Assembly (NCBI GenBank): GCA_023818655.1
Contig: JAMWCI010000002.1
Span: forward strand, 8,437 to 43,624
Length of the DNA: 35,188 nucleotides
Reading direction: 5' to 3'
Source: Candidatus Omnitrophota bacterium
Lineage (GTDB): Bacteria; Omnitrophota; Gorgyraeia; Gygaellales; Profunditerraquicolaceae
The position numbers and the translations under genes are program-made. Under the pieces are notes generated by a model that worked only from the letters and a program-made list of their open reading frames with translations, was not told where the DNA came from and did no database searches. Below are positions 27,530-35,188 of this stretch, piece after piece. The stretch's first letter is position 1, and the number at the start of each line of letters is the position of its first letter.

Positions 27530-28424
27530 ACTCTCCCTCGCTGATAAGCTGTTGTTCAGCAAGTATCTCAATGCGCAACCGCACGATTTGTCGGTTTATG
27601 CCTTTGAAAATATTTATATCTGGAAGAACCTCTTTGAAGTCAACTGGCGGATTATAGAAGGACGCCTGTGTATTTTCTTCCGCGACCAACTGGGTTGTTT
27701 TTTGTATCTTCCTCCGCTGGGAGACCGGATAACCCCTGATGTGTTAAACGAGAGCTTTAAGATAATGGACAGGGTAAATAAAAAAAACAGGGACGCCTCA
27801 CGGATAGAAAATATTGAAGAAAAAGAAATCTCTGCCTATACAGCCTTAGGATTAAATTGCGCGTGGAAATCTCGGGATTACGTCTATCGCCGCAGTTGCC
27901 TGGTTAATTTGAAGGGAGATAAATTTAAATCCAAAAGAGCCTCTTACAACTATTTTCTCAAACACAACAAATTTGAATATCGGGCCTTTGGCAAAGAGGA
28001 TAGCGATGAATGCCTGGCGATTTATTTGGCGTGGATAAAGCAAAGGACAACCGGCAGAGACAAATTGTATGACGGGATGCTTAAGGATAGTCTGAATTCT
28101 TTTATTGCTATGTTAGAAGGATTCGGCCGCCTAGATTTAACCGGTCGCGTGGTAACAATAGATGGCAAGATAAAGGCATTTACCTTTGGATACAAGTTGA
28201 ATGCGTCTACGTTCTGTGTCCTTTATGAAATAGCGGACTTGGAGATTAAGGGCTTGGCGCAGTTTATCTTCAGGGCTTTTTGCGCAGAGTTGAAAGAATA
28301 TTCATATATCAACGTTATGGATGATTCTGGCTTGGAGAATCTAGCGCGGGTAAAACTATCATACCGGCCGCTAAGATTGTTGAACTCTTATATTGCCACA
28401 AGGAAAGAATGCCTCATACAATAA
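27516..28424 (+). CDS. DUF2156-family GNAT-like protein (phosphatidylglycerol lysyltransferase C-domain type)
   Basis: A 302-residue protein similar to the LPG_synthase_C/DUF2156 fold, two tandem GNAT-like halves. Visible marks are LSVYAFENIYIWKNLF near residue 30, a central block GDKFKSKRASYNYFLKHNKF, and the acyltransferase-like end with RVVTIDGKIKAFTFGYKLN and FIFRAFCAEL. It lacks the membrane flippase part of MprF and any signal peptide, so it should be a soluble cytoplasmic transferase; the acceptor is unknown. ATG at 27516 overlaps YkgJ; ATG at 27522 is an alternative. Its end overlaps the exonuclease gene by 16 bases. Confidence 0.8.
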   Translation: MRMRRLSLADKLLFSKYLNAQPHDLSVYAFENIYIWKNLFEVNWRIIEGRLCIFFRDQLGCFLYLPPLGDRITPDVLNESFKIMDRVNKKNRDASRIENIEEKEISAYTALGLNCAWKSRDYVYRRSCLVNLKGDKFKSKRASYNYFLKHNKFEYRAFGKEDSDECLAIYLAWIKQRTTGRDKLYDGMLKDSLNSFIAMLEGFGRLDLTGRVVTIDGKIKAFTFGYKLNASTFCVLYEIADLEIKGLAQFIFRAFCAELKEYSYINVMDDSGLENLARVKLSYRPLRLLNSYIATRKECLIQ

Positions 28425-29230
28425 ACGAGATAGAATTTACTATATTTGATACCGAAACCACCGGTCTTGATCCCCAGGCCCAAGACCGGATTGTAGAGAT
28501 TGCCGCTGTCCGTTTTCGCGGCCAAGAGAGACTTGCCAGATTACATATGCTTATAAACCCCGGACGCCCCATCTCCGAGGCAGCTTTTAATATAAACAGG
28601 ATTACCGATAAGATGCTTATAGACGCCCCTCGTGCAGATGAGGTAATTCCAGACTTCTTGCGTTTTATAGAGGGTAGTTGTCTATGTTCATACAACGCCG
28701 GTTTTGACATCGAGTTTCTGAACCACGAATTGACTATTATGGGCAGGGGTGCCTTGTCTGCCTTAAACATAGTAGATATCCTTAAGATGGCTAAGAGGCT
28801 GCTTCCAGGCTTGCCCAGTTATGCACTTATACGGGTGGCTGAGGCAGTAGGGGTAAAGAGACAACAGAGGCACAGGGCTATGGCTGATGTTGAACTTACG
28901 CTGGAGGTATTTTATAGATTAAAACAGATGCTCTTGGAAAAAGGAGTTGATGATTTTAATAATTTCTTAAGCCTTTTTGCCATAAAGAGCGGTTTATTAG
29001 AGACCATAGTCGCCCAGAAGTTGGCTTCTATTCAAGAAGCGATTGATTTGGGGGCGAAGCTGAAGATAAAATATATCTCTGGAGCGGGGGCGCAGGTTTC
29101 GGAAAGGGAAGTCTTGCCCCAGGAGATTAAAGAGGAGAATAACCGCAGTTATCTGGTTGGTTACTGTTTGCTGAGAAACGAAAAACGCACTTTCCGTATT
29201 GATGGCATATTACACCTTGAACTCGTATAA
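28409..29230 (+). CDS. DnaQ-like DEDDh 3'-5' exonuclease fused to a WYL domain
   Basis: A 273-residue two-domain protein. Residues 8-175 are a DnaQ/epsilon-type exonuclease: FDTETTG (Asp14, Glu16), SYNAGFDIEFLNHEL for ExoII, and QRHRAMADVE for ExoIII with the DEDDh His and Asp. Residues about 203-273 match a WYL domain: IQEAIDLGAKLKIKYIS, then SEREVLPQEI, YLVGYCLLRNEKRTFRIDGI. WYL domains are ligand- or nucleic-acid-sensing modules best known in transcription regulators and phage-defence proteins. All exonuclease catalytic residues are kept. It overlaps the gene before it and pabB after it, so it sits inside a metabolic operon and not with replication genes. The biological role is unknown. 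Confidence 0.88.
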   Translation: MPHTINEIEFTIFDTETTGLDPQAQDRIVEIAAVRFRGQERLARLHMLINPGRPISEAAFNINRITDKMLIDAPRADEVIPDFLRFIEGSCLCSYNAGFDIEFLNHELTIMGRGALSALNIVDILKMAKRLLPGLPSYALIRVAEAVGVKRQQRHRAMADVELTLEVFYRLKQMLLEKGVDDFNNFLSLFAIKSGLLETIVAQKLASIQEAIDLGAKLKIKYISGAGAQVSEREVLPQEIKEENNRSYLVGYCLLRNEKRTFRIDGILHLELV

Positions 29231-30566
29231 AGCAAAGATTGACCCCTTGCTCATCCTGTCTGTGTTAAAAGAAGAAAAAAACTGTTTTTTTCTGGATACA
29301 GGGATAAAAAGGCGCTGGTCATTGGGCCGTTATTCATTCTTGGGGGCTAATCCGTTTTATGTGCTCTCCACCGAGCAGAAAGATCCCTTCCCTAAGCTTA
29401 AGGCGATGTTGGAGAAATACCGTTTATCTGCAGCCAAAGGTTTTCCGCCCTTACTGGGCGGCGCAGTGGGATATTTTAGCTACGATTTAGGTTTTCTTTT
29501 AGAAGATAAATTAAAACCAGTCAAGCCGCCGGATATCCGGATACCAGAATGTTTCCTGGGGTTTTACAATACCGTAATTATCATTGATAATCTACAACAA
29601 AGACTATATCTGTGCGCATTGGGTTTTCCGGAGAGAAACTACTTATCTAGCCGCGCCCTCTGTCGCCAGAATCTGGATAAGATACGTCGTCTGCTTGCGC
29701 GCGCCGCAGATAAAAAAATAGCGAATTTACGCAATCCCTGTGCGGTTAGGCCAACATTGAAATCAAACTTTACTAAAAAGGCTTATCTCTCGGCAATAAG
29801 AAAGGCCAAGGATTACATCAGGGCCGGAGACATATATCAGGTTAATCTTTCACAGAGATTTCAGACGCAGACAAATTTTACCGCTTTTGATATTTACCGG
29901 AGATTGCGCCTAAAGAGCCCTTCCTATTTTAGCGCTTATTTTGACTGCCATGCCTTTCAGATTTTAAGTTCCTCTCCAGAGAGATTCTTGAAGGTGGATG
30001 GGGATAAGGTAGTGACGCGGCCGATGAAAGGCACGCGGAAACGTGGCAGAAATAGGAGCGAAGACAATTATCTGAGAAAAGAGCTGTTGTATAGCGGCAA
30101 GGATAAGGCAGAGTTGATTATGATTGTGGACTTGGAGAGAAATGACTTAGGAAGAGTCTGTAGTTACAACTCTATCCGCGTGGATGTCCTAAGAGAGATA
30201 GAAAGATACCGCACGGTATGGCAGACTACAGCTTCCATAAGCGGAAAGCTCAGAAAGGGAAAAGATAGACTAGATTTATTGCGCGCCTGTTTTCCCGGCG
30301 GTTCAGTCACCGGCTGCCCCAAGATACGCGCTATGGAGATTATTGAAGAGCTGGAGCCGACAAGACGCGTCGTATATACCGGTTCGCTCGGTTATCTCAG
30401 TTTCTCTGGAGAGATGGAGTTAAATATTTTAATCCGCACTATCCTGAAGAAAGGCAACAACGTCTATTTTGGGGTTGGCGGGGGAATTGTTTCTGATTCT
30501 CAGCCGGAAGAGGAATATCAGGAGACCTTGGTCAAGGCGCAGGCTATGGTAGAGGCATTGATATGA
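29202..30566 (+). CDS. pabB: Aminodeoxychorismate synthase component I
   Basis: Makes 4-amino-4-deoxychorismate from chorismate, the first p-aminobenzoate step for folate. The 454-residue chain has the anthranilate-synthase-like N-terminal domain, then the chorismate-binding core: RAGDIYQVNLSQRF, LSSSPERFL, PMKGTRKRG, DLERNDLGRVC and CFPGGSVTGCPKIRAMEIIEELE. Lys276 in PMKGT is the residue that distinguishes PabB from TrpE, which has Ala there. ATG at 29202 is chosen over TTG at 29199 and lies in the end of the exonuclease gene. The glutamine amidotransferase PabA is not in the window. It overlaps pabC as ATGA. Confidence 0.94.
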   Translation: MAYYTLNSYKAKIDPLLILSVLKEEKNCFFLDTGIKRRWSLGRYSFLGANPFYVLSTEQKDPFPKLKAMLEKYRLSAAKGFPPLLGGAVGYFSYDLGFLLEDKLKPVKPPDIRIPECFLGFYNTVIIIDNLQQRLYLCALGFPERNYLSSRALCRQNLDKIRRLLARAADKKIANLRNPCAVRPTLKSNFTKKAYLSAIRKAKDYIRAGDIYQVNLSQRFQTQTNFTAFDIYRRLRLKSPSYFSAYFDCHAFQILSSSPERFLKVDGDKVVTRPMKGTRKRGRNRSEDNYLRKELLYSGKDKAELIMIVDLERNDLGRVCSYNSIRVDVLREIERYRTVWQTTASISGKLRKGKDRLDLLRACFPGGSVTGCPKIRAMEIIEELEPTRRVVYTGSLGYLSFSGEMELNILIRTILKKGNNVYFGVGGGIVSDSQPEEEYQETLVKAQAMVEALI

Positions 30567-31387
30567 AAGAGATAGTTTTTCTGAATGGCAAGTTCCTTCC
30601 GGCAAAAGAGGCCCGGCTTTGCGTTTTAACCCCCGGTTTCCTACAGGGCTTAGGAGTTTTTGAAACCCTGCGCTGGCGCAATAATAAATCGGTTTATCTT
30701 AATGCGCATTTAGCGAGGTTAGAAAAATCCGCGCTCTCTCTTGAAATGAAGTTATCTTACGGGACAAAACAGTTAAAAGAGACCTTGGCGGAGATAGTTT
30801 CCGTTAACGGTTTTAGCGACGCTGTTCTGAGGATTGCTCTCTGGAAAACCGCCAAAGAAGCGGATTTGTTAATTACCGCCAAAAAACACATCCCTTGCCC
30901 TTCTTCTAAATACAGAGAAGGTTTTTCAGTCTGCGTATCCAGATACCGACAAAACGAGAATTCTCCGCTTAGCCGGATAAAATCAACCAGCAGGTTTTTC
31001 TATGAGTTAAGTTTTTCAGAGGCCAGAAACAATGGCTTTGATGAGGCGATTATGCTGAATAACCGCGGATACATTGCCGAAGCCACAAGGAGCAATATTT
31101 TTATCGTTGCCAAAGGCGTAATTTTTACCCCCGCTATAACCTGTGGCTGCCTTCCTGGCATTACCCGTCAGGCAGTTTTGGATTTAGCGAGAATTTACCG
31201 GATAGAAACAGGTGAGGCAGCCTTGACTATTCAAGATTTAGCTGAGGCAGAAGAGGCATTTCTCACTAATTCGGTAATGGGTATAATGCCGCTTACCTCC
31301 GTAGATAATAAATATATAATAGGTAAAGGCCGATGCGCAAGGATAACGCAATTTCTTATCTCAAAATACAACTCCCTTTTAAAGTAA
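30563..31387 (+). CDS. pabC: Class IV aminotransferase-fold enzyme, probably aminodeoxychorismate lyase
   Basis: PLP enzyme of 274 residues. Catalytic Lys140 lies in SRIKSTSRFFYEL; further marks are GVFETLRWRN near residue 32, GYIAEATRSNIF, CLPGITRQAVLDLA and EEAFLTNSVMGIMPL. These fit the PabC/IlvE/D-alanine aminotransferase family. The ATGA overlap with pabB makes aminodeoxychorismate lyase, giving p-aminobenzoate and pyruvate, the best call; sequence alone does not exclude a branched-chain aminotransferase. Its last 55 bases overlap the HypF-like gene. Confidence 0.88.
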   Translation: MKEIVFLNGKFLPAKEARLCVLTPGFLQGLGVFETLRWRNNKSVYLNAHLARLEKSALSLEMKLSYGTKQLKETLAEIVSVNGFSDAVLRIALWKTAKEADLLITAKKHIPCPSSKYREGFSVCVSRYRQNENSPLSRIKSTSRFFYELSFSEARNNGFDEAIMLNNRGYIAEATRSNIFIVAKGVIFTPAITCGCLPGITRQAVLDLARIYRIETGEAALTIQDLAEAEEAFLTNSVMGIMPLTSVDNKYIIGKGRCARITQFLISKYNSLLK

Positions 31388-32469
31388 GCTGTCCTGTATT
31401 AGCCTTGGGTAGTCAGACAAAGAATACTCTTTGCTTATTGAAAGGAAGGTCCGCCTACATCAGCCCTATACATCCATCTTTGGATGAACTAACCGACCTT
31501 CTTTCCTTTGAAAGAGACGCTAGAAGACTTTTAAGGTTCCATCCCAAGATTATCGCCTGCGACCTACATCCGGGATATCAATCTACCAGATTTGCAGCGT
31601 TGTTTAATTCAAGATATAAAATAGTACCGGTTCAACACCACCATGCGCACATCGCATCCTGCATGTTAGAAAACAACTTAAAGAACCAAAAGGTAATCGG
31701 AGTAGCTTTTGATGGAACCGGTTTAGGCCAGGATAATAGAGTCTGGGGCGCGGAATTCCTTCTTTGCGATTACCGTAGTTATCTAAGGCAGGCCTATCTT
31801 AAGGAGATGCCTCTTTTGGGAGGAGAAAAAGCCATATTAGAACCATGGCGCCTGGCCTGTTTTTGGCTTTATCAGATATACGGGGAAGATACGCTTGGAT
31901 TAAAAATTGATTTTATCAAGAAGATACCGCAAAAAAAATGGGAGACATTAAGAAAACTATATCGCTCTGGTTTTGATTTTCCCCTTGCCAGCAGCATGGG
32001 GCGTCTCTTTGATGCGGCGGCTGCCCTTGTTTTAAGCTTGACCACTGCCCGCTTTGAAGCAGAGTTGGCAGTAAGGCTTGAGCAGACGGCAGGACGCTGG
32101 AAAGGAAAAGCTCGTTCATATCCCTTCCGGATTCTAAATTCAAAAGGAAGATTGGTTATCGACCCTTCTTATACAATACAAGAGATAGTCTCGGATTTAA
32201 AAGCGCGCCGGCAGAAGGAGGAAATCGCATATCAATTTCATCTGACGCTGGCAGAAATAATACTGAAGATTTGCCTTAAACTAAAGAGAAAATATGGTAT
32301 AAATAAGGTGGTTCTTTCAGGAGGAGTTTTTCAGAATAGTCTCCTTTTAACAAACACCATAAAACGCCTGACAGACAAAGGATTCTTGGTATTTAACCAC
32401 AAAAAATTAGTCTGCAGCGATTCCTCGCTTTCTCTTGGTCAGGCAGTAGTTGCTTATTTTGGGAGTTAA
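31333..32469 (+). CDS. hypF: HypF-like carbamoyltransferase reduced to the Kae1-like domain
   Basis: HypF (about 750 residues) normally has acylphosphatase, zinc-finger, YrdC-like and Kae1-like domains, and makes the thiocarboxamide on HypE for NiFe-hydrogenase cyanide ligands. This 378-residue protein is only the last part: the first 20 residues look like the YrdC/Kae1 linker (QLPFKVSCPVLALG), then KNTLCLLKG, CDLHPGYQSTRFA, the metal site VQHHHAHIASCMLENN, AFDGTGLGQD, GGVFQNSLL and CSDSSLSLGQAVVAY. The activation domains that form carbamoyl-AMP are missing and no remnant is seen upstream, where pabC occupies the sequence. They may be encoded elsewhere. hypC follows after 3 bases. Confidence 0.88.
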   Translation: MRKDNAISYLKIQLPFKVSCPVLALGSQTKNTLCLLKGRSAYISPIHPSLDELTDLLSFERDARRLLRFHPKIIACDLHPGYQSTRFAALFNSRYKIVPVQHHHAHIASCMLENNLKNQKVIGVAFDGTGLGQDNRVWGAEFLLCDYRSYLRQAYLKEMPLLGGEKAILEPWRLACFWLYQIYGEDTLGLKIDFIKKIPQKKWETLRKLYRSGFDFPLASSMGRLFDAAAALVLSLTTARFEAELAVRLEQTAGRWKGKARSYPFRILNSKGRLVIDPSYTIQEIVSDLKARRQKEEIAYQFHLTLAEIILKICLKLKRKYGINKVVLSGGVFQNSLLLTNTIKRLTDKGFLVFNHKKLVCSDSSLSLGQAVVAYFGS

Positions 32470-32472
32470 GAT

Positions 32473-32682
32473 ATGTGTTTGGGTATACCTATGAAAGTAA
32501 AAAAAATAAAAGAGGGGTTTGCTCAGGTTGAATCCGGCCGGCTAACCCGCACCGTCAATATTCAGATGTTGCCCCATATCTCTATAGGTGACTATGTTAT
32601 TGTGCACGCCGGTTTTGCCATAGAAAGAGTAGACCCGGAAAAGGCCAGAGAAACCTTAAGGATGCTGGATGAGATACATTGA
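32473..32682 (+). CDS. hypC: Hydrogenase maturation chaperone HypC
   Basis: A 69-residue chaperone that carries the Fe(CN)2CO unit with HypD and binds the hydrogenase large-subunit precursor. The essential Cys2 is present in MCLGIPMKV; GDYVIVHAGFAIERVD is the other family block. It lies between the HypF-like gene and hypD, and overlaps hypD by 14 bases. No hydrogenase structural gene lies in the window. Confidence 0.95.
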   Translation: MCLGIPMKVKKIKEGFAQVESGRLTRTVNIQMLPHISIGDYVIVHAGFAIERVDPEKARETLRMLDEIH

Positions 32683-33790
32683 CGAATATAGAAACAAAGG
32701 ATTGATTCAAGCCATAGCCGAAAGAATCAAAATGAGCCTGCCCGGTTATCCGATAAAGATTATGGAGGTTTGCGGCACGCATACCCATAACTTCTACCGT
32801 TTCGGACTGGATAAACTTATCCCTCCCAATCTAAAGCTTATTTCTGGACCGGGGTGTCCGGTGTGCGTAAGCACGCAGGATTATATTGACAGCTGTATAA
32901 ATCTTGCTGGGTATAAAGATGTTATCTTGACTACCTTCGGAGATATGCTGGCTGTTCCGGGCAGTAATTCTTCGCTGGAGAAGGCAAGGGCAAGGTTAGG
33001 GAATATACAGGTTATCTACTCTCCTCTGGATAGCCTTGCCATAGCACAGAACAATCCGGGAAAAAAAATTGTATTTTTGGCTGTGGGGTTTGAGACTACC
33101 GCGCCTGGTATCGCCATTACAATTTTAAAGGCTAAGAGAGAAAAAATAAGAAACTTTTTTATTTTTTCCTCCCTCAAGCTTATGCCGCCGACAATGGAGT
33201 TTCTTCTTAAGGATAAACAACTGCATCTGCATGGCTTTCTCTGCCCGGGGCATGTCTCGGCAATAATCGGAATAAATGCCTATCTGCCTTTGAGTAGAAA
33301 ATATAAAATATGTTGCTGCGTTGCCGGATTTGAACCAGTGGATATCTTGGATGGGATTTATCTTATTTTGCGCCAAATCGCTGAGAAGAGAACAGGGGTG
33401 GAAAATCAATATTCTCGCGTAGTCACGGCAGCCGGCAATAGAAAAGCCCAGAGTATAATCAGGCAGGTTTTTGAAGTAGAAGACGCCTGTTGGCGGGGAT
33501 TGGGTGTTATACCGGCAAGCGGTTTGCGCATAAAGAGAGAATTTTCCGGTTTTGATGCCCGGGTAAACTTTTCTTTAAATCTAGACCATGGCTCTGAGAG
33601 TAGACTGGCAGCGGCGCGAGTTAAATCCGCCAATCTCCAGAAGAGATGCCGATGCGACGACGTGTTGAGAGGGATCATTCAACCAGACCAGTGCAGTCTG
33701 TTTAAAAAGATTTGCACCCCAGACCAACCTTATGGTCCATGCATGGTTTCTATAGAAGGAGCATGCCATGCCTATTATAAATACCTTTAG
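32669..33790 (+). CDS. hypD: Hydrogenase maturation protein HypD
   Basis: A 373-residue iron-sulfur scaffold for assembly of the Fe(CN)2CO group. Marks are MEVCGTHTHNFYRFGLDKL, SGPGCPVCVSTQDYID, FLAVGFETTAPGIA, LCPGHVSAIIG, CVAGFEPVDILDGIYLI, and the C-terminal [4Fe-4S] site containing CSLFKKIC, PYGPC and EGACHAYYKY. All conserved cysteines appear to be there. It overlaps hypC at its start and the lipoprotein gene at its end. HypE, HypA and HypB are not seen in this window. Confidence 0.97.
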   Translation: MRYIDEYRNKGLIQAIAERIKMSLPGYPIKIMEVCGTHTHNFYRFGLDKLIPPNLKLISGPGCPVCVSTQDYIDSCINLAGYKDVILTTFGDMLAVPGSNSSLEKARARLGNIQVIYSPLDSLAIAQNNPGKKIVFLAVGFETTAPGIAITILKAKREKIRNFFIFSSLKLMPPTMEFLLKDKQLHLHGFLCPGHVSAIIGINAYLPLSRKYKICCCVAGFEPVDILDGIYLILRQIAEKRTGVENQYSRVVTAAGNRKAQSIIRQVFEVEDACWRGLGVIPASGLRIKREFSGFDARVNFSLNLDHGSESRLAAARVKSANLQKRCRCDDVLRGIIQPDQCSLFKKICTPDQPYGPCMVSIEGACHAYYKYL

Positions 33791-35188
33791 AGGGAAAGCG
33801 TTGCTTGTGAACTTATTGGGACTGGTATTGATAATTTTCGCCTCAGGTTGCAGTAGACACACTTCGGAATCAACGCCGGCGGAGTTAGCCAAGAAATCAG
33901 GGGATTATTATAGAGAGGCCTTAGCGGCATATAATAACGCCCTTGCCAGAAGCCGCGATGCCGAGAAGCTGCGTTTTGAACTGGGCAGACTTTATTTTGA
34001 ACACGGGGATTTTACTTCAGCCATCGCAGAGTTTAAAAAGACGGATAGTCCGCAGGCAAAGAAATTGTTGGCTATCTCTCTGTACAAAAAAGGGGATTTT
34101 GCAGATGCGCTGGAGGCGTTCAGCCATAATGAACTGAAGGATGATGAATCTCTCTATTTTTATGGCCTGACTGCTGAGAAATTGAATCTTTTTGACGAGG
34201 CGCTGAAGGCCTACCTGAAAATTAATTCCGCCAGCCTTAAACAGGACGTTCGTGTGCGGATAGAAGCCATAGAAAAAGAGGCAGGCATTTTACATATCAA
34301 GGAAGCTGACCCTAAGGTTTATGCTATCATAAAGGATGCCCCGACACTGGCCGAATATCCCCAGGCAGGCGCGCTTATACTTTATTGCGATGAGACTATA
34401 GAAATAACCCCGGACAACAGACAGATATCAGTTTTGCATTACCTCGTCAAGATTCTTAATGAACGGGGAAAGGAAAAATTTTCCGAGACCCATGTGGATT
34501 ATGATTCCACATACGAGAAAGTTAAGCTGGTATATGCCAGGACAATCAGACCAGATGGCAGGGTGGTAGATGTGGGCGCGCGGCATATCCGCGATGTCTC
34601 CAGATATCTGAATTTTCCTCTCTATAGCAACGCCCGCGCCTATATTATTTCTTTTCCAGAGATTGCAGAAGGCTCTATCATAGAGTACAAGGTAATACTC
34701 CATAATAACCGGCTAATAAATGAAAAGGATTTTATGACCGCCTATATGTTGCAGGATGATGAGCCGATTATCGCCGCCAACTTCACACTGCGCCTGCCTA
34801 TAGACAGAGGCATACATCTCAAGACTGTTAATGAACGCTACAACGATTTTGACGCGACATTGAGTCCTGTCGTAAAACAAGAAGGCAACTTTATGGTGTA
34901 TAAGTGGCAATTTAAAAATATACCCCAGATTATCCCTGAGCCAAGTATGCCGCCAATGGCAGAGGTAAACCCTACATTTTTTGTATCTACATTCAATTCT
35001 TGGGATGATATTTATAAGTGGTGGTGGGGTCTTGCCTCTGGGAAAATGAATCTCGATTCACAGATAAGGGATAAAGTCAGGGAGCTGACCAGAAACAAGA
35101 AGACAGAAAAAGAAAAGGCAGCCGCGCTATACAATTTCTGCGCCCAGAAGATTCGCTATGTGGCTGTGGAGTATGGTCAGGCAGGATA
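33768..35188 (+). CDS. Lipoprotein with TPR repeats, DUF3857 and a transglutaminase-like domain (3' end outside window)
   Basis: An open frame of 473 codons runs off the window end. ATG at 33768 has AAGGAG 6 bases before it. The start MPIINTFRGK, a hydrophobic core and FASG-Cys28 make a plausible, slightly atypical lipobox. Residues about 45-150 have TPR-like helix pairs (LRFELGRLYFEHGDFTSAI, LLAISLYKKGDFADALEAF). Residues about 205-370 match DUF3857 (HYLVKILNERGKEKF, RTIRPDGRVVDV, FPEIAEGSIIEYKV). From about 410 a transglutaminase-like region begins (YNFCAQKIRYVAVEYG), incomplete here. Probably anchored to a membrane with the domains in the periplasm. Function unknown; the overlap with hypD indicates cotranscription. 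Confidence 0.85.
   Translation, partial: MPIINTFRGKALLVNLLGLVLIIFASGCSRHTSESTPAELAKKSGDYYREALAAYNNALARSRDAEKLRFELGRLYFEHGDFTSAIAEFKKTDSPQAKKLLAISLYKKGDFADALEAFSHNELKDDESLYFYGLTAEKLNLFDEALKAYLKINSASLKQDVRVRIEAIEKEAGILHIKEADPKVYAIIKDAPTLAEYPQAGALILYCDETIEITPDNRQISVLHYLVKILNERGKEKFSETHVDYDSTYEKVKLVYARTIRPDGRVVDVGARHIRDVSRYLNFPLYSNARAYIISFPEIAEGSIIEYKVILHNNRLINEKDFMTAYMLQDDEPIIAANFTLRLPIDRGIHLKTVNERYNDFDATLSPVVKQEGNFMVYKWQFKNIPQIIPEPSMPPMAEVNPTFFVSTFNSWDDIYKWWWGLASGKMNLDSQIRDKVRELTRNKKTEKEKAAALYNFCAQKIRYVAVEYGQAG

Follow-up and report, generated by a model that had tools for sequence, protein, structure and literature searches.

The Kae1-like domain alone makes up the normal HypF of a whole lineage of uncultured Omnitrophota, where it is encoded in otherwise intact hydrogenase gene sets and is neither a local peculiarity nor an artefact. 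HypF starts the synthesis of the cyanide ligands of nickel-iron hydrogenases, and the first reactions of canonical HypF convert carbamoyl phosphate to carbamate, and carbamate with ATP to carbamoyl-AMP. The short protein, here called HypF', is probably a HypE S-carbamoyltransferase that is fed carbamoyl-AMP in trans, and the explanation that we favour as a whole, with modest confidence, adds the housekeeping protein TsaC as the most likely source of this carbamoyl-AMP. In canonical HypF, the YrdC domain forms carbamoyl-AMP, which is passed on by internal channelling to the Kae1-like domain for transfer to a cysteine of HypE (PMC9654439; PMC3814370; PMC12134894). Of the intermediates, carbamate is shielded by a tunnel in the canonical protein (PMC12134894), and both it and carbamoyl-AMP are labile; this lability and the internal channelling of both are thought to be why canonical HypF keeps its domains joined. 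A lineage whose sole HypF is without the N-terminal half and which has kept the rest of the pathway makes carbamoyl-AMP supply in trans directly testable, and also allows tests of TsaC as supplier and of the role of the acylphosphatase domain and the zinc fingers.

A short hypF gene encodes the Kae1-like half of HypF

The window, which is the whole stretch of 35,188 nucleotides that was analysed, belongs to contig C129; the genome measures 1.57 Mb, is 91% complete and is assembled in 147 contigs. The following features were assigned around the short gene:

28409..29230, + strand: DnaQ-like exonuclease with WYL domain, upstream (Pfam RNase_T and WYL); synteny kept in the family
29199..30566, + strand: pabB/trpE-like chorismate-binding enzyme, upstream (Pfam Chorismate_bind); synteny kept in the family
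30563..31387, + strand: pabC-like aminotransferase class IV, upstream (Pfam Aminotran_4); synteny kept in the family
31333..32469, + strand: hypF', Kae1-like carbamoyltransferase half of HypF, 378 aa, ATG start (Pfam, alignment to 3vth, AlphaFold)
31333..31387, + strand: overlap of the hypF' start with the pabC end, 55 bases, encoding the linker-derived N-terminus MRKDNAISYLKIQLPF
32473..32682, + strand: hypC, 69 aa (Pfam HupF_HypC, E 2e-26)
32669..33790, + strand: hypD, 373 aa (Pfam HypD, E 7e-143)

A preliminary description of this DNA had reported that the start of hypF' overlaps pabC by 55 bases and that intact hypC and hypD genes follow it directly; the overlap is exact, with pabC ending at 31387, and both downstream genes are supported by their Pfam matches. 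Directly after hypD, at 33768-35186 of the window, a protein with TPR and DUF3857 is encoded, a position that is kept in most of the family.

The open reading frame 31333-32469 is, as judged from profile and structure comparisons, a complete Kae1-like domain of HypF without acylphosphatase domain, zinc fingers or YrdC domain. HypF_C (PF17788) matches residues 21-113 of its product (E 7e-26, 91.2 bits) and HypF_C_2 (PF22521) residues 123-370 (E 3e-72, 244 bits), both above cut-off, and no Pfam match to Acylphosphatase, zf-HYPF or YrdC was found in the 378 residues. The full-length HypF model TIGR00143 is covered only from position 366 to 740 of 741, with a score of 264.8 bits that stays below the full-length cut-off of 466.1 bits, and the product aligns to residues 392-745 of HypF from C. 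subterraneus (3vth) with an E-value of 1e-69. The Pfam score for TsaD was below cut-off, whereas the HypF families scored far above theirs. These matches bear out the earlier claim that no more than the Kae1-like half of HypF is encoded and that the domains for carbamoyl-AMP synthesis are absent, so that by known chemistry it cannot make its own carbamoyl-AMP. The scar of the linker, which had also been claimed, is indeed retained: the N-terminus 'KIQLPFKVSCPVLALG' fits the YrdC/Kae1 linker '(RGYAP)xPIxLPF...VLAxG' of full-length HypF.

The metal- and nucleotide-site residues (HxxxH, DGxGxG, GRxFD, GGxxxN and D363) are all present in the product encoded in the window. An AlphaFold model, for which the alignment was built from relatives in public genomes, reached a pLDDT of 94.7 and superimposed on the Kae1 domains of the HypF structures 3vth, 3vti, 3tsp and 4g9i with TM scores of 0.83-0.90, ranked ahead of any TsaD; the score was 0.90 both for 3vth (rmsd 1.6-1.9) and for 3vti.

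The short form is widespread in Omnitrophota

Among 58 related genomes, 35 belong to the family of the window, and 20 of these 35 carry a short HypF (the window's genome included; two cases are cut by contig ends) while two carry a full-length HypF. The gene order dnaQ-pabB-pabC-hypF'-hypC-hypD-TPR protein is common to most same-family genomes with the short gene. Full-length HypF at the same locus in relatives had been named in the preliminary description as a sign of a local error; none was found there, and G002 and G014 carry their full-length hypF in a hypF-C-D-E operon of its own, next to another large subunit.

When the survey was extended to 384 Omnitrophota genomes, 140 had a HypF match (E ≤ 1e-20), of which 35 scored above the full-length cut-off, about 100 were Kae1-only, some of them truncated by a contig end, and a handful were fragments or degenerate. 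Score cut-offs for full-length hypF thus overlook most Omnitrophota copies. In the approximately 100 Kae1-only genomes the match begins at about model position 381, and among 80 HypF loci from named public genomes, short forms with an upstream stop codon were found only in Omnitrophota. Two genomes encode a degenerate full-length HypF of 707-712 aa (L180:6296-8416 and L181:6144-8279), with good acylphosphatase and zinc-finger domains, a weak YrdC domain and a Kae1 domain without its middle part.

Most of the genomes are incomplete MAGs, that of the window with its 147 contigs and 91% completeness among them, and a short hypF' might accordingly reflect an assembly or frameshift artefact or have its N-terminal half on an unassembled contig. 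However, the same boundary recurs in about 100 independent genomes, three of which (G127, G254 and G327) are assembled as single contigs and agree with the rest, and other intact genes lie upstream of hypF'. An artefact is thereby ruled out, its probability being practically nil. The preliminary description had further suggested that the N-terminal half was lost when operons were fused at pabC. This suggestion did not hold, as the truncation is phylum-wide and most short forms outside the family lie without a pabC neighbour, mostly in hypF'-hypC-hypD-hypE operons; the pabC overlap as cause of the truncation is ruled out, since only the window and a few relatives show this minor feature.

HypF' is conserved together with the remaining maturation genes

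In the genome of the window, contig C98 encodes a full-length HypE whose C-terminus reads PRIC, with the substrate cysteine kept. Its location on a separate contig is expected because relatives have several kb between hypD and the hypE downstream of it, and C129 stops about 2 kb past hypD. Contig C11 encodes a [NiFe] large subunit with a Complex1_49kDa match and all four cysteine ligands (RICGIC and DPCYCC), adjoined by 30-kDa-like and 20-kDa-like subunits; it is group-4-like, a subgroup name that, like group-3b-like below, is a reading of the sequences. Thus both HypE and a hydrogenase large subunit, which the preliminary description had proposed to look for, are present. A carbamoyl phosphate synthase is encoded as well, as it is in 39 of 40 Kae1-only genomes.

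At 25 catalytic and ligand positions, including HHHAH, DGxGxG, GRxFD, GGxxxN and D363, 49 short forms from Omnitrophota are conserved like 108 full-length Kae1 domains. The P-x-N-D-G-G loop hardly varies among full-length HypF proteins of bacteria, but the short forms of Omnitrophota and of betaproteobacteria have it relaxed. As a marker of lost channelling the relaxed loop is weakened by the full-length archaeal HypF of T. kodakarensis, in which it reads 'DNG'.

The genes hypC and hypD, with or without hypE, follow hypF' throughout, and HypE has a PRIC C-terminus at 54 of the 56 loci compared, a few of which overlap one another or stem from full-length genomes. At about ten loci of other families, the hypF' operon continues an Mrp/group-4 hydrogenase operon that also encodes a ferredoxin-like subunit, the protease HycI and often HypA, and in three genomes of another family it contains HypA and a cysteine-complete group-3b-like large subunit, one of these subunits being cut by the end of the stretch. 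Within the window's family, HypE was detected above cut-off in 18 of 20 Kae1-only genomes versus 3 of 13 genomes without HypF.

It is very improbable that HypF' is decayed or repurposed and that the hydrogenases are matured without it. In its favour, several relatives (among them G037, G004, G028 and G040; loci L093, L095, L092 and L293) encode group-4-like large subunits with four cysteine ligands and gave no HypE or HypF match, one of these genomes being assembled in two contigs; as relatives without Hyp proteins have them too, the cysteines of a large subunit are weakened as proof of maturation and do not suffice on their own. HypF1 of C. necator, moreover, looked inactive in E. coli. Against decay, the catalytic residues are conserved across about 50 deep-branching sequences, hypF'CDE operons are conserved inside hydrogenase operons, the PRIC termini of HypE are intact, and no other HypF is present in the genomes.

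A second, diverged Kae1-only HypF paralogue was noted in four genomes of one Omnitrophota family (L177:6586-7548, L178:1324-2292, L179:1344-2300 and L187:6556-7668). It lies beside genes for a NUDIX hydrolase and a MATE-like transporter, and several otherwise invariant residues are changed.

No separate N-terminal half accompanies HypF'

A full-length hypF elsewhere in the genome, which would make hypF' a paralogue, was searched for and none was found in the genome of the window; zf-HYPF likewise gave no match above cut-off there. The possibility of a split HypF with a separate half that makes carbamoyl-AMP, raised in the preliminary description, is ruled out by the zf-HYPF and YrdC searches. 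Matches to zf-HYPF occurred in 0 of 41 Kae1-only genomes versus 15 of 15 genomes with full-length HypF, and no protein combining acylphosphatase, zinc fingers and YrdC was found in the window's genome or in another 40 Kae1-only genomes, of which three are single-contig. YrdC above cut-off was present exactly once in 37 of 40 Kae1-only genomes (none in one, two in two), and this single YrdC is a TsaC-like ORF of 200-470 aa; nearly all genomes with full-length HypF have an extra YrdC inside HypF besides TsaC. A free acylphosphatase on contig C82 was rejected as a HypF piece: no hyp genes surround it, and most relatives encode such a stand-alone protein whether or not they have HypF. On a plasmid of Sulfurovum mangrovi (L197:1348-3586), HypF is encoded in two ORFs with the break between the zinc fingers, being either naturally split or frameshifted.

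The sole YrdC protein of the window's genome is a fusion of YrdC with a low-molecular-weight phosphatase (LMW-PTP) on contig C56 (L067:9303-10361, genome G000). Judged by ORF length, this fusion is common across the phylum with or without HypF. It was rejected as a special source of carbamoyl-AMP, since the TsaC ORFs of G127, G254 and G193 comprise only 204-238 aa and are too short for it, and since the long form is also found in most genomes with full-length HypF.

Proposed supply of carbamoyl-AMP in trans

According to the explanation that we favour, the first HypF reactions would be carried out by no dedicated HypF fragment; carbamoyl-AMP would be made in trans, most likely by the housekeeping TsaC, as the cell has no other enzyme with a YrdC fold, and HypF' would transfer the carbamoyl group to the HypE cysteine, which is the only step, the last one, that can be assigned from known chemistry. 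We infer the catalytic activity of HypF', carbamoyl-AMP as its donor and TsaC as the source of this donor. TsaC would be the simplest supplier because it is the only YrdC enzyme left and because t6A synthesis relies on TsaC and TsaD as two separate proteins. Several points count against this explanation: carbamoyl-AMP is, to our knowledge, not among the known products of TsaC, the genomes examined showed no linkage of tsaC with hypF', and the intermediates carbamate and carbamoyl-AMP are labile. A wider reading, which is possible and is put forward only tentatively, is that in most HypF-bearing Omnitrophota TsaC, the one YrdC enzyme, would serve two transferases, making TC-AMP for TsaD as well as carbamoyl-AMP for a free HypF of the Kae1 type, which would couple cyanide-ligand synthesis to tRNA t6A metabolism.

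Since neither an N-terminal half nor a further YrdC is present, an active HypF' might formally receive its carbamoyl-AMP from another enzyme, either one without the YrdC fold or a divergent YrdC missed by the searches. The essential nature of t6A, which may restrict the sharing of TsaC, would also speak for such a synthase. However, no conserved extra gene lies beside hypF' across families, the neighbours being hydrogenase, Mrp, protease and hypA genes or lineage-specific ones, and we regard this alternative as rather unlikely.

It also appears quite improbable that HypF' uses a simpler donor, namely carbamoyl phosphate taken directly, together with ATP bound at the Kae1 nucleotide site, or else cyanate derived from carbamoyl phosphate. 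Carbamoyl phosphate synthase is present, and the relaxed loop of the short forms could mean that the active site has adapted. Yet that loop, altered in the full-length protein of T. kodakarensis too, is no clean marker, and the remaining catalytic positions are unchanged. HypF and TobZ, furthermore, share the two-step chemistry, and in the solved structures of both the adenylate is formed in the YrdC domain (PMC3814370; PMC9654439).

The short form probably arose more than twice

An unrooted maximum-likelihood tree was built from 125 Kae1 domains; in it, 53 of 54 short forms from Omnitrophota fall on one side of a branch with SH-aLRT 97, apart from all full-length HypF of Omnitrophota and other phyla. 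HypF1 of C. necator and of A. temperans group elsewhere, that of C. necator among full-length HypFs, and the Kae1-only HypF of G047 (L042:4054-5430) groups with full-length HypF of the candidate phyla Ratteibacteria and Stahlbacteria, which makes it a probable third independent truncation. From these tree positions, the short form arose at least twice and probably three times. The Kae1-only HypF of G047 sits in an Mrp-hydrogenase operon. A TsaD-rooted tree had a branch length of about 5, was saturated and thus carried no information on the root.

The short forms nearest to that of the window begin with IxLPF before VLALG, like the full-length linker RGYxPxPIxLPF, and a linker remnant was detected with a loose pattern in 23 of 56 short forms. 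This remnant favours a loss of the N-terminal half over an unfused ancestor. It speaks against a stronger form of the t6A-coupling reading, by which the free HypF may descend from an unfused ancestor.

Comparison with known Kae1-type transferases

Canonical full-length HypF (3tsp from E. coli, 3vth and 3vti from C. subterraneus, 4g9i from T. kodakarensis) shares with HypF' the Kae1-like fold, the catalytic residues and the hyp context, whereas HypF' is without the N-terminal stretch of about 380 residues that holds the acylphosphatase domain, two zinc fingers and YrdC. TsaD/Kae1 with TsaC/Sua5 provides the precedent of a stand-alone Kae1-fold transferase that obtains its adenylate from a separate YrdC protein, and YrdC and Kae1 are separate proteins in t6A synthesis (PMC9654439). 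Sequence similarity of HypF' to TsaD/Kae1 is weak although fold similarity is clear, and in contrast to HypF', TsaD/Kae1 transfers threonylcarbamoyl to tRNA. The O-carbamoyltransferase TobZ, a distant fold match to the HypF' model, is likewise Kae1-like and uses carbamoyl-AMP, but its YrdC-like domain is fused at the C-terminus and its acceptor is a small molecule (PMC9654439).

The architecture of the short form is already known from HypF1 of C. necator H16 (394 aa, plasmid pHG1), the nearest known parallel, which also comprises only HypF_C and HypF_C_2, without acylphosphatase, zinc fingers or YrdC, and is encoded in the operon hypA1B1F1CDEX; what it has in common with HypF' is a Kae1-only HypF in a hyp operon. 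HypF1 was described as having one of the three HypF domains and as likely to need carbamoyl adenylate, and was inactive under O2 limitation (PMC9100943); it was also inactive in E. coli, where its expression was unverified (PMC5350229). As HypF1 is the only studied relative by architecture, its inactivity counts against the supply in trans that we favour. In contrast to the Kae1-only Omnitrophota, where the short form is the only HypF, pHG1 carries two further HypF copies, at least one of them full-length (819 aa), and the distant positions in the unrooted Kae1-domain tree give the two short forms separate origins. The HypF' proteins of Omnitrophota are cleaner test proteins than HypF1, which coexists with full-length copies. 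No report of an organism whose sole HypF is Kae1-only, or of any such protein serving as HypF in Omnitrophota, was found in the literature searched, most subscription literature lying outside that search. A further Kae1-only HypF of the HypF1 kind, annotated as a hypothetical protein, is encoded between hypB and hypC on plasmid pEP1 of Acidovorax temperans (L200:2480-3658).
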